In this document: positions 14,715 to 58,565 of the stretch, piece by piece | Layout: the number at the start of each line of letters is the position of its first letter | Numbering within the stretch: position 1 is the first letter of the stretch | NCBI RefSeq assembly: GCF_024972755.1 | Contig: NZ_CP087724.1 | Span: forward strand, 2,604,001-2,668,000 | Source of the DNA: Halanaeroarchaeum sp. HSR-CO | GTDB taxonomy: Archaea; Halobacteriota; Halobacteria; Halobacteriales; Halobacteriaceae | Reading direction: 5' to 3' | Length of the DNA: 64,000 nucleotides | Notes under the pieces: model-generated | Told to the model about the DNA's origin: nothing | What the model saw: only the letters and a program-made list of their open reading frames with translations | The model's database searches: none | Translations under genes and position numbers: made by a program

Positions 14715-15890
14715 TCAACGCGTCTCGCCGGCCTCCGTCCCAACGTCGCTTCCGGGCCTGTCACCGATCACCGCCTCGCCGTCGTCACCGGTCTTCGCTT
14801 CTCGTTCGCCGCCACCCCGTCGCTCCGCGAAACGACCACGCAGCCCACTCCCCAGCGCCCCGATACCGACCAGCAACGCGAGGAAGACGGCGATCCCGCC
14901 GACGATCGGGATGAACCCGATGAGCACGAAGACGAATAGGCCGAGTAGCAGTGCCTTCCACTTGCCCTCGGAGCCGAGCCGGGCGAGGAGATACCGACCG
15001 ACGGCGAACTCACCGTACACCACGCCGACCCAGATAGCCAGCACGTACAGCATCAGACCGAGAAGCGCCACGGGGATGCCGACGATGGTGATGGCGAACG
15101 CCACGAGGAGGATCGGAATGCCAAAGAGCAAGAGGAGGCCCCAGCCGCCCGAACGGACCGTGCGCTCTTCCACCGCGTCGGCGACCTCGTTCGAGAACCG
15201 GGGGAACAGCACGAGTAGGAGCGCGCCCAGGAGCAGGTTCGCGAAGAACCCGTAGACGGTGTCGACCCAGCCAGGAATGTCCCAGTTTGTGCCCCACCCG
15301 GCCGGACCCATGCCGCCGCCGATGCTGTCGTCACGAATCACGGATCCCTCGACCGTCGCGCCCTCCTGCAGGTTCAACGCGCCGTCGTACCGGAGGTCGC
15401 CGGCGACGACCGCGGACGGCCCGACAGTGATCCGGTCGGCGCCCACCGTCACGGTGCCGTCGATCTGTCCGGCGATGAGGACGTTCCCGGCACCGAGATT
15501 GACGTCACCGCCGATCCGTGCGGGTCGCTCGAAGACGACGTTCCCGCCGGCGAAGTCGACGTTCCCACCGACGGTGCCGGCGATCCGCAGGCTTCCGGCG
15601 GCCCCGTTCACGTTCCCGGTCACCGTTCCGGTCTCCTCGACGACGACATCGCCGGAGACGGCGTTCACGTCACCGTCGACCGTTCCGCGAACGACGACGG
15701 TTCCAGCAACCGTCGAGATGCCGTTCGACGTCTCGCCCTCGTCGACCACGACCGTCCCTGCTGGACCGGTCTGGGCAGGGGCGACGCTCTGCGATGGCTG
15801 GGAAGCGACGACGCCGGCGACGCCAGCGAAGACGACGAGCGCGACTATCGCGAAGACGGTCGCTCGGCGGAGCGAGGGATAACGGTTCAT
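14715..15890 (-). CDS. Polymer-forming beta-helix membrane protein (bactofilin-like)
   Basis: A 391-residue envelope protein. Residues 1-35 are a signal or anchor segment. Residues 45-190 contain a run of short repeats of the kind GTVDGDVNAVSGDVVVEETG, about 6-residue turns rich in Gly, Asp and Val, which predict a right-handed beta-helix like bactofilins. Residues 205-350 hold about five membrane helices, and the last 40 residues are charged and hydrophilic. The arrangement of an outside beta-helix followed by a membrane domain is common in haloarchaea and is named polymer-forming by similarity; its function has not been shown. It is divergent from rfcS across a hairpin-rich region. Confidence 0.8.
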   Translation of the reverse strand: MNRYPSLRRATVFAIVALVVFAGVAGVVASQPSQSVAPAQTGPAGTVVVDEGETSNGISTVAGTVVVRGTVDGDVNAVSGDVVVEETGTVTGNVNGAAGSLRIAGTVGGNVDFAGGNVVFERPARIGGDVNLGAGNVLIAGQIDGTVTVGADRITVGPSAVVAGDLRYDGALNLQEGATVEGSVIRDDSIGGGMGPAGWGTNWDIPGWVDTVYGFFANLLLGALLLVLFPRFSNEVADAVEERTVRSGGWGLLLLFGIPILLVAFAITIVGIPVALLGLMLYVLAIWVGVVYGEFAVGRYLLARLGSEGKWKALLLGLFVFVLIGFIPIVGGIAVFLALLVGIGALGSGLRGRFAERRGGGEREAKTGDDGEAVIGDRPGSDVGTEAGETR

Positions 15891-16007
15891 ACCATCGACA
15901 TTCTCCCGCCAAGACGATAAATGCAGGTTGACATTTTGTGGCCTGCTACTCAGTATCGGTGTCTTGCTGGCTGGAGCGGTTCAGTTCGCTGGGACCAGTC
16001 GGGGTTC

Positions 16008-16246
16008 GCGGCTCACTACGTTCGCCGCTCGCAATACCGAGAGCCTCGCGCGTCTCTCGGGTCGCTCGCACTCCCCGCTCGATATGCCAGTAGCGCTCAC
16101 TGCGTTCGCGCCACTCGTCTCGCGGCTCGTTTCACTCACCGCTCGTCTATCCGAGGCCCCTCCCTTCGGTCGGCGCCTCGCGTCTCTCGGGTCGCTCACG
16201 CTCCCCGCTCGCCACAACGTGGAGCTTCCCTCCGGTCAGCTCCACG
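16008..16246. repeat. Intergenic hairpin array upstream of rfcS
   Basis: Four hairpins with different stems but matching 11-nt loops. Stem GCGGC/GCCGC (16008-16028) with loop TCACTACGTTC; stem GCGC/GCGC (16093-16111) with loop TCACTGCGTTC; stem CGAGGCCCC/GGCGCCTCG with one mismatch (16152-16180) and loop TCCCTTCGGTC; stem CGTGGAGCT/AGCTCCACG (16218-16246) with loop TCCCTCCGGTC. Between them, CGTCTCTCGGGTCGCTC occurs at 16051 and again at 16181, and CTCCCCGCTC at 16071 and 16201, exactly 130 bp apart. The whole gap between the two divergent genes is otherwise non-coding. A related array lies upstream of radA. Confidence 0.75.
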
Positions 16247-16257
16247 CGTCTCGCACC

Positions 16258-16288: not shown

Positions 16289-17257
16289 ATGGCAGATCCC
16301 GCGGACGGGCGACAGCAGATCTGGGTCGAGAAGTATCGCCCCGAACGCCTCGCGGACGTGGTCGGCCACGAGGACATCATCGACCGCGTCGAGAGCTACG
16401 TCGCCCGCGACGACCTCCCCCACCTGTTATTTTCGGGGCCGGCAGGTACGGGAAAAACCGCGACGGCTACGGCCATCGCCAAGGAACTCTACGGCGACGA
16501 CTGGCGCGAGAACTTCCTGGAACTGAACGCCTCCGACGAACGTGGCATCGACGTGGTCCGCGACCGTATCAAGAACTTCGCGCGGTCGAGTTTCGGCGGT
16601 TACAACTACCGCATCATCTTCCTCGACGAGGCCGACGCGCTCACCAGCGACGCACAGTCCGCGCTCCGGCGGACGATGGAGCAGTTCTCGAACAACACCC
16701 GCTTTATCCTCTCGTGTAACTACTCCTCGAAGATCATCGATCCCATCCAGTCGCGGTGTGCCGTCTTCCGGTTCACCCCACTCGACGACGACGCGGTGGC
16801 CGAACGGATCGAGGACATCGCCGAGGCAGAGGGGATCGACTACACCGACGCTGGCGTCGACGCCCTGGTCTACGCGGCGAACGGCGACATGCGACGGGCC
16901 ATCAACGCGCTGCAGGCCGCCGCGGCGACCGGCGAGGTCGTCGACGAGGAGAGCGTCTTCGCCATCACGAGCACGGCCCGCCCCGAAGAGATCCGGGAGA
17001 TGGTCACCAGCGCTATCGACGGTGATTTCCCCACCGCTCGCGCCCGCCTCGACGAACTCATCGGCGAGCGTGGCCTGGCGGGTGGCGACATCATCGACCA
17101 GCTCCATCGGTCTGTCTGGGACTTCGACGTCGACGAGGAGACGGCGGTCTTCCTGATGGACCGCCTCGGTGAGGCCGACTACCGCATCACCACGGGTGCG
17201 AACGAGCGCGTCCAGCTGGAGGCGCTGCTCGCGGCGGTCGCCCTCGAGGTCGAATGA
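16289..17257 (+). CDS. rfcS: Replication factor C small subunit
   Basis: AAA+ clamp-loader ATPase that opens PCNA and places it on primed DNA. The 322-residue protein shows [17 protein letters not shown], Walker A GPAGTGKT, Walker [12 protein letters not shown], sensor 1 [10 protein letters not shown] and the SRC arginine-finger motif in QSRCAVFRF. The C-terminal third is the helical collar. Haloarchaea often carry more than one rfcS-type gene, so this may be one of two or three. It begins 27 nt after a TATA box, fitting a leaderless transcript, and its partner PCNA is encoded 8 kb upstream. Confidence 0.95.
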
Positions 17258-56207: not shown

Positions 56208-57107
56208 CTACTCCTCGACGGTCGGTTCTTCGATGCGATCGAACGACTCTCGCATCCGCGAGAGTTCCCTGTCGACGTCCTCGGCCTTGCCGTGGGCGTT
56301 CGAGATGTGGCGTTCGAGTGTCCCCCACTCGTCCTCGAAGGCCTCGAATCGGCGATCCAGTCGATCGAGGTGCTCGAGGATCTCCTCGGCCTCCGCCGAG
56401 AGCTTTCGGGCCTGCACGCCGGCCTTGATGAGTTCGAGTTTGTGCCCGAGGGTGAGCGGCGAGACGACCTGGACGCCGCGTTTCGTGTACGCCCGGAGCA
56501 TGTCGTACTCCTCGGTCACGAGGTGGTAGTAGACGCTCTCGCTCGGGACGAACGCGAACGCGAAGTCGGTCGTCCCCTGGTCCGGCCTGACGTAGTCCTC
56601 GGCGATCTTCGCCAGCTGTTCGTCGACCTGGTCGCGGAAGGTCCGTTCGTGGGTGGCCCGTTCCTGTGGATTTTCGGCCTCGATGGCTCGTTCGTAGGCG
56701 TCCAGCGAGAACTTCGAATCGATGCAGACGACCCCCTCGCTGGTCTCGATGTGGGCGTCGGGCGTCTTGTTGCCCACCACCCGCTTGCGGATGCCGAACA
56801 TGTCGGGCGGGAGGTGGTCTTCGAGGATGATCTCGAGTTGCTCCTCGCCGAACTCGCCGCGCTCCCGCGGGACCCGCAGGAGGCGTTCGAGGTTCTGGTG
56901 GACGCTCTGGAGTTCGGTGGCGCGGTCCTCGATGCGGGAGACCGACGCCGCGAAGCCCATCTCCGAGAGCGTGGTGTGCATCGCCGTCGTCAACTGGTCG
57001 GTCCCGATCTCCTCGCGCTGGACCGCCCGCCGGATCTGGACGAGCAACAGGAGGATGGCGAGCAGCGCGAGCAGCACTCCACCGATGAGGTAGTCGCCGA
57101 CGGGCAT
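56208..57107 (-). CDS. RmuC-like protein
   Basis: A 299-residue protein with one N-terminal membrane helix (6-26), a coiled-coil part (residues 40-100) and an RmuC nuclease-type core. Core strings are GEFGEEQLEIILEDHL, VCIDSKFSLDAYERAI and FAFAFVPSESVYYHLV, the DSKF segment being part of the PD-(D/E)xK site. The C-terminus is helical. E. coli RmuC limits rearrangements at inverted repeats; whether the archaeal form does so is not known. It lies next to the hairpin array upstream of radA, divergent from it. Confidence 0.86.
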   Translation of the reverse strand: MPVGDYLIGGVLLALLAILLLLVQIRRAVQREEIGTDQLTTAMHTTLSEMGFAASVSRIEDRATELQSVHQNLERLLRVPRERGEFGEEQLEIILEDHLPPDMFGIRKRVVGNKTPDAHIETSEGVVCIDSKFSLDAYERAIEAENPQERATHERTFRDQVDEQLAKIAEDYVRPDQGTTDFAFAFVPSESVYYHLVTEEYDMLRAYTKRGVQVVSPLTLGHKLELIKAGVQARKLSAEAEEILEHLDRLDRRFEAFEDEWGTLERHISNAHGKAEDVDRELSRMRESFDRIEEPTVEE

Positions 57108-57149
57108 TACAGGCGCGTACGCGTGGGGGACCCTCAACTATTGGGTTCG

Positions 57150-57397
57150 GGTGGCGCCGGCAGGCGCCACCGAATGAGCGAGCGGGGAGAGCGCGGACCG
57201 AAGGTCCGCGGTACTTACGAGCGGGCCTGTGGCCCGCGAGCGGTAGCCAACCGCGAGCCGCGGGCGGTGCCGCTAGGCACCGCCGGATGGGCGAACGGGG
57301 AGGCGCGGACCGGCGGTCCGCGGGATAATCGAGCGGGCAGGTAGCCCGCGAGATCGAAGCGACCCGCGAGCAGCAGCGATGCCACCAGGCACTGCTG
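57150..57397. repeat. Intergenic hairpin array upstream of radA
   Basis: A unit of three hairpins (A, B, C) is repeated with a period of about 111 bp. A1 (57150-57171) GTGGCGCC/GGCGCCAC; B1 (57192-57210) CGCGGACC/GGTCCGCG; C1 (57221-57237) GCGGGCC/GGCCCGC; A2 (57263-57284) GGCGGTGCC/GGCACCGCC; B2 (57304-57322) CGCGGACC/GGTCCGCG; C2 (57333-57349) GCGGGC/GCCCGC; A3 (57374-57397) CAGCGATGCC/GGCACTGCTG with one mismatch. Stems of A differ between units but stay paired, and B loops are GAA or GGC. Spacers share GCGAGCGGGGAG-like and CGAGCGGGC-like words. Confidence 0.75.
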
Positions 57398-57497
57398 GCT
57401 GTGAGCGGGCACTCTTCCCTGATGAACCCTGGCCAGGGGAGGAGCGACCCTCGATCACCGCACCCGAATTTCACTTTCACTCTGGTGTATACGAGGG

Positions 57498-57503
57498 TTT
57501 ATA
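57498..57503 (+). promoter_or_regulatory. TATA element of radA
   Basis: TTTATA in GGGTTTATACCC, about 28-30 nt before the ATG at 57531. A second TATA-like GTATAC lies just before it. Confidence 0.65.
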
Positions 57504-57530
57504 CCCGAAACGGGAGAATGTCGGACTACG

Positions 57531-58565
57531 ATGCCAGCAGACGCGAACCTCGAGGAGCTGCCGGGCGTGGGACCGGCCACGGCAGAGAAGTTGCACGAAG
57601 CGGGATTCGACTCCTATCAGAGTCTGGCGGTCGCCTCTCCCGGCGAACTGTCCAACACGGCCGACGTCGGCGAATCGACCGCGGCCGACATCGTCCAGGC
57701 CGCCCGGAAGGCGGCGGACATCGGCGGCTTCGAGACCGGCACCGACGTACTCGAGCGGCGCGAACAGATCGGGAAGCTCACCTGGGGCGTCCCGGAGGTC
57801 GACGAACTGCTCGGCGGCGGCGTCGAGACGCAGTCGATCACCGAGGTCTACGGCGAGTTCGGGGCCGGCAAGTCCCAGGTCACCCACCAGCTGGCCGTCA
57901 CCGTCCAGCTCCCCAGGGAGTACGGCGGCCTGGAAGGCAGCGCCATCTTCGTCGACAGCGAGGACACCTTCCGACCGGAACGGATCGACGACATGGTGAA
58001 GGGGCTCTCCGAAGAGGCCCTCGAGGCGACGAAGGCGGACCGTGAGATAGAGGGCTCGCTCGACGACGAGGACGTCATGGACGAACTGGTCCAGGACTTC
58101 CTCGACCACATCCACGTGGCGAAGGCGTTCAACTCCAACCACCAGATCCTGCTCGCGGAGAAGGCAAAGGAGGTCGCGAGCGAACACGAGGATACCGACT
58201 GGCCGGTCCGGATGCTGGCAGTGGACTCGCTGACAGCTCACTTCCGGGCGGAGTACGTGGGCCGCGGCGAACTCGCCGACCGCCAACAGAAGCTCAACAA
58301 ACACCTCCACGACCTGTTGCGGATGGGCGACCTCTACAACACGGCCGTCGTCGTCACCAACCAGGTGCAGTCCAACCCGGACGCGTTCTTCGGCGACCCC
58401 ACGAAACCGATCGGTGGGAATATTTTGGGCCACACCTCGACGTTCCGTATCTACCTCCGCAAGTCCAAGGGCGACAAACGGATCGTTCGGCTGGTCGACG
58501 CGCCCAACCTCGCGGACGGTGAAGCCGTCATGCGCGTCGAAGACCGTGGGCTGAAGCCAGAGTAG
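57531..58565 (+). CDS. radA: DNA repair and recombination protein RadA
   Basis: Archaeal RecA/Rad51 recombinase, 344 residues, forms filaments on single-stranded DNA and drives strand exchange. Residues 1-65 are the helix-hairpin-helix domain ([16 protein letters not shown]). Walker A is GEFGAGKS at 108-115, Walker B is [12 protein letters not shown], and the later [17 protein letters not shown] covers the DNA-binding loop L2. [21 protein letters not shown] is the C-terminal signature. No intein. It starts 28 nt after a TATA element and downstream of a hairpin array. Confidence 0.96.

Follow-up and report, generated by a model that had tools for sequence, protein, structure and literature searches.

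Palindromic DNA that invades genes in frame has been described mainly in Rickettsia and in a few bacteria (PMC3733652, PMC10969869). The Rickettsia palindromic elements (RPE) include CGTC-type REPs, namely RPE-4 and RPE-6 (PMC3733652, PMC10969869). Our literature search, in which subscription journals were mostly uncovered, turned up no description of haloarchaeal genes with palindromic inserts in frame, though an earlier one is possible. The 64-kb stretch of haloarchaeal DNA analysed here (the window) carries an array of hairpins between two genes, and related copies were found both between and inside genes of other haloarchaea. The comparisons below suggest, with a probability that we place at about 0.7, that a mobile palindromic DNA element of haloarchaea, whose copies within genes are kept in one frame, gave rise to the array as a tandemly expanded cluster between two genes.

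Hairpin array between rmuC and radA

The array occupies about 255 bp (window positions 57146-57400) between two divergent genes, one of the RmuC family (56208-57137, minus strand; PF02646) and the other radA of the Rad51 family (57531-58565, plus strand; PF08423). It consists of two 112-bp units, each made of hairpins A, B and C, and a weaker third A hairpin, all given here on the plus strand; the B and C hairpins of the two units are spaced by 112 bp and are 80% identical over 50 nt. The first unit contains hairpin A1 (TTCGGGTGGCGCC-GGCA-GGCGCCACCGAA; 57146-57174), hairpin B1 (CGCGGACC-GAA-GGTCCGCG; 57192-57210), which is the variable-stem hairpin of the family, hairpin C1 (CGAG-CGGGCC-TGT-GGCCCG-CGAG; 57218-57240), which is its conserved hairpin, and a linker hairpin (CGAG-CGGT-AGCCA-ACCG-CGAG; 57237-57257). 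The second contains A2 (GGCGGTGCC-GCTA-GGCACCGCC; 57263-57284), B2 (CGCGGACC-GGC-GGTCCGCG; 57304-57322) and C2 (CGAG-CGGGC-AGGTA-GCCCG-CGAG; 57330-57352), and the imperfect third A hairpin (around 57370-57400) opens a truncated unit. The initial annotation had described three hairpins repeating about every 111 bp. The array is real, but its period is 112-113 bp (about 113 bp from A to A) and comprises three hairpins or more rather than one, with B and C placed between consecutive A hairpins; the last of the A stems is weak. The two perfect A stems are 9 bp long with 4-nt loops (57150-57171 and 57263-57284), and the proposal that these stems vary in sequence yet remain paired was borne out, as A1 and A2 differ at two pairs and both changes are compensated.

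Folding of the 255-nt array gave z-scores of -6.5 (RNA) and -6.1 (DNA), and 0 of 200 shuffles folded equally well. The window (66% G+C) holds five perfect hairpins of at least 9 bp, which is near the shuffled range (0-7), but two of them within 140 bp were not seen in any of 20 shuffles. The array lies upstream of both divergent genes, and a terminator role is therefore excluded. Rfam gave no match above the gathering score for the array.

In the single congener compared (G001), the rmuC-radA junction is present without the array. The array is an insertion or expansion at this junction. A block directly upstream of radA, TTTCACTTTCACT...GTTTAT, is retained by the congener and by the other haloarchaeal radA loci examined. 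Strong conservation across the haloarchaeal radA loci examined was seen for the block TTTCACTTTCACTCTGGTGTATACGAGGGTTTAT (57467-57510, upstream of radA), which is probably a promoter or regulatory site. The gene next to the array had been called RmuC-like, and a link to inverted repeats, perhaps by chance, had been noted. It is a true RmuC-family gene, but since the congener has the same gene pair without an array, and other arrays and copies adjoin many different, unrelated genes, the link is unsupported and looks like chance.

A repeat family of the Halobacteria

A search with the array DNA alone returned copies in its own genome and short matches in other genera, including matches inside trpB, and these trpB-embedded copies belong to other families. 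The C hairpin was then expressed as the pattern CGAGCGGGC N2-6 GCCCGCGAG, with the same pattern read backwards as control. Of 194 genomes from the order, 128 contain it; the reversed control gave a handful of matches and was nearly absent. When a longer pattern was run over GTDB, 66 of the 69 contigs matched were from Halobacteria; three bacterial matches (L098, L104, L113) lie on the opposite coding strand and were set aside as chance. The pair of B and C hairpins belongs to a repeat family nearly confined to Halobacteria. Eight pattern matches were found on viral contigs, none of which resembled the element around the C motif, and no viral carrier was found. A 24-mer common to many genomes was also discarded, being a chance coding match in a gene resembling that of ribosomal protein S13.

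Hairpin B precedes C, in most copies at a distance of 7 nt, and its stem varies in sequence (GCGGAGC, GCGGAAC, GAGGCGC, the GCGGACC of the window, and others) while its pairing stays. In an alignment of 56 copies, 97.8% of the cells pair, and double changes affect 47 cells where shuffling gave 12 on average, which agrees with the earlier suggestion that pairing rather than sequence is kept. None of 500 shuffles showed B-stem covariation as strong, and no slid register came close. The alignment favors copies with a recognisable B and the statistic ignores kinship; two master variants of the B stem (GCGGAGC and GCGGAAC) could explain part of the covariation. A covariance model (R1) built from this alignment gave 793 matches, spread over 76 of the 98 related genomes, with up to 44 in a single genome. 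As both window units were among its training sequences (2 of the 56 rows), their own R1 scores are not independent.

The family is also represented elsewhere in the window's genome, where the initial annotation had proposed to search for it. R1 found six matches there at E < 1e-4, and related arrays or copies stand at C1:2579303 (minus strand), 594758-594937, 2367317 and 218972. A second, more diverged array of similar design, with weak model matches only, is located in the window upstream of rfcS (16005-16250, minus strand). It shows alternating hairpins with CGAG-CGG...CCG-GAG motifs and lies between an ORF at 14715-15890 and rfcS (16289-17257). A further copy lies in frame in a HIT-family gene (G000:C1:187336-187863, L166). 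This copy is longer than usual, with three hairpins in the order further stem, B and C, is flanked by an 11-bp repeat with one mismatch, and is missing from G001 and from the other HIT orthologues examined. The further copies in this genome and across the order, together with the empty site in the congener, argue for the mobile or recombination-prone repeat that had been listed among the possible natures of the array.

Copies inside protein genes

Roughly half of the copies studied are intragenic (in trpB, merA, gyrB, eno, cobN and others), and these in-gene copies, invisible to a reading of the window only, are a more surprising part of the family than the window array. In a first pass over haloarchaea, 61 of the 63 copies judged intragenic shared one frame, reading approximately SAERSSADxSSGQxPRE. 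A stricter test scored each flank separately and retained those copies where both sides were confidently called coding on one strand. All 66 copies so retained have the same orientation and the same frame (approximately SAERSSADHSSGQSPRE), with zero stops, and 65 of them have a 21-nt form of C; non-coding copies show other lengths. Five further copies had flanks called coding on opposite strands by the composition score, and these calls are taken as errors of that score. In two copy-rich genomes, coding copies measured 55 or 61 nt over R1 (one measured 53), and non-coding copies measured 52, 57 and 60 nt as well. The host proteins include AMP-binding ligases, class I tRNA ligases, ATP synthase, gyrase B, an amino-acid kinase, a carbamoyltransferase, aconitase, phosphoglycerate mutase, enolase, SufB/D and a RIO kinase, among others, and RefSeq or public plasmid annotation runs uninterrupted across the element in merA, cobN, eno and others. 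None of the coding copies showed hairpin A in the form that it has in the window array.

Comparison with uninterrupted orthologues defined exact inserts. The gene for an AMP-binding ligase differs by exactly 54 bp between two species of one genus. The trpB of Natrinema hispanicum differs by 54 bp from that of Halobiforma, which has its own insert elsewhere in the gene, and a solved TrpB structure (5ey5) is without the insert. The merA of Halorussus aquaticus is 54 bp longer than those of Halorarius litoreus and Haloarcula marismortui, its insert being common to Halorussus aquaticus, Salinirubellus and Natrinema zhouii. No target duplication was found at the 54-bp inserts of the ligase, trpB and merA genes, and the in-gene inserts compared have no terminal inverted repeats. 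The TrpB inserts occupy two different places in different genera (L120; L122/L141/L161). Three genera share the first of these, but their B stems differ and so, slightly, do the boundaries. An AlphaFold model of TrpB with its insert was set aside, as the mean pLDDT was 34 on four sequences.

Two codons of stem B have third bases that combine as G-C in 40 of the 66 coding copies, as A-T in 21 and otherwise in 5, and the covarying third bases fall mostly at synonymous positions. Protein selection alone does not explain this linkage, which would instead require selection on pairing in place or the spread of two paired masters; either would suit an element dependent on its hairpin.

Mobility, alternatives and relation to known systems

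The evidence for movement is comparative, and the presence or absence at orthologous sites, the exact inserts, the frame bias and the covariation would together favor a model where the core of the element is a twin hairpin, formed by B, whose stem can vary provided that it pairs, a 7-nt spacer, and a nearly fixed C (CGAG-CGGGC-nnn-GCCCG-CGAG). This core would spread as a unit, about 54 bp long, that leaves no recognisable target duplication at its new sites, its copies probably moving as DNA through a single-stranded, hairpin-forming intermediate, and pairing may be kept for that mobility. Between genes, copies could gain extra hairpins, alter the length of their loops and be duplicated in tandem, as in the window array. 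Within genes, survival would be limited to copies in a single orientation and frame, and these would be translated and tolerated as a soluble insert of 18 residues (approximately SAERSSADHSSGQSPRE), so that the host protein presumably still functions. A more ambitious version, to which we give slightly less than even odds, is that of an order-wide archaeal hairpin element specialised for genes, its sequence shaped both for the twin-hairpin fold and for a harmless, soluble one-frame insert of 18 residues, so that it could invade essential enzymes, and which is moved by an unrecognised enzyme.

The copies could also be by-products of IS605/TnpB elements. They would then be palindromes close to the tips of right ends, like those of the PATEs of Haloquadratum, either mobilised by a Y1 transposase or remaining once the core had been deleted. 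Six copies (L136, L140, L143, L154, L189, L194) do resemble right ends, with the tip GTAGGGTGGGGTAGTTTAC directly 3' of the core, and a tnpB zinc-ribbon motif stands upstream in three of them (L136, L140, L143). Each end of the short element L039 carries GTAAACTACCC, and IS605-type elements share with the 54-bp inserts the lack of a target duplication (PMC3119063). However, a right-end or IS context was seen in just 7 of the 184 pattern matches examined, the tip GTAGGGTGGGGTAGTTTAC is missing from in-gene inserts, and the TnpB right ends may merely have captured the repeat. The number of Y1 transposases does not follow copy number (Spearman rho -0.02), which speaks against this enzyme as the driver, and 18 genomes with at least 10 copies have no detectable Y1 transposase. 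An origin of the family in IS605/TnpB elements is therefore rather unlikely.

The strong fold, the compensated stems and the location between divergent promoters would also suit a functional non-coding structure serving radA or rmuC (a 5' leader, a regulatory RNA or a cruciform insulator) in which pairing is kept. This is improbable as the congener lacks the array though it retains the TTTCACTTTCACT...GTTTAT block, similar arrays stand beside unrelated genes and Rfam recognised none of it. Less probable still is the removal of in-gene copies at the RNA level, or their skipping by the ribosome in the manner of the byp elements of yeast mitochondria. The stable hairpins in the mRNA and the insertion into conserved enzymes would fit this, but a skipped sequence would escape the constraint that holds all 66 coding copies to one stop-free frame, and 65 of them to a 21-nt C. 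Chance, or low-complexity drift of GC-rich intergenic DNA, for which the GC-rich genome and the common, generic GAGCG-rich linkers could be invoked, is refuted by the near absence of reversed control patterns, the 0 of 500 shuffles and the exact presence or absence of 54 bp.

A mobile palindromic element, the reading that we favor, would have consequences beyond this locus. The haloarchaeal family is apparently unrelated to RPE, and its presence in central enzymes would be an independent solution and would show selfish DNA adding new protein segments. Many 'lineage-specific insertions' annotated in haloarchaea may be one mobile element, a warning for annotation, and Haloferax, Haloarcula and Natrinema offer tractable hosts in which its mobility, translation and cost could be studied.

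Compared with described systems, the in-gene inserts examined differ from a MITE in having neither terminal inverted repeats nor a target duplication. The family resembles REP/BIME sequences with RAYT in its short hairpins, its tens of copies, its paired units and its intergenic clusters. It differs from them in that its copy number does not follow Y1 transposase counts, and from GTAG REPs in that a GTAG/CTAC tag stands by the hairpin in 3 of 140 copies and about half of the copies are intragenic. The sequence GACG (CGTC on the other strand) is enriched on the 3' side of C, where 61 of 140 copies have it no more than 10 nt away, and it recalls the CGTC tag of some bacterial REPs, but GAC is also present in the empty ligase and merA sites. 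The PATEs of Haloquadratum walsbyi (PMC3119063) are likewise haloarchaeal palindromes with no transposase gene and no target duplication, and some TnpB right ends carry the core of our repeat, pointing to IS605-type elements or PATEs. The family differs from PATEs in its 54-bp core, mostly without IS ends and in frame in genes, which is not mentioned in the passages of PMC3119063 consulted. RPE are alike in being short palindromic repeats of many copies, in frame in many unrelated genes whose products apparently work, and the haloarchaeal in-frame inserts are similarly missing from orthologues, a likeness of description between unrelated hosts. Unlike RPE, which belong to one obligate intracellular genus, the family described here is archaeal and order-wide, with a 54-bp twin hairpin of one fixed and one covarying stem, and with multi-hairpin arrays between genes.
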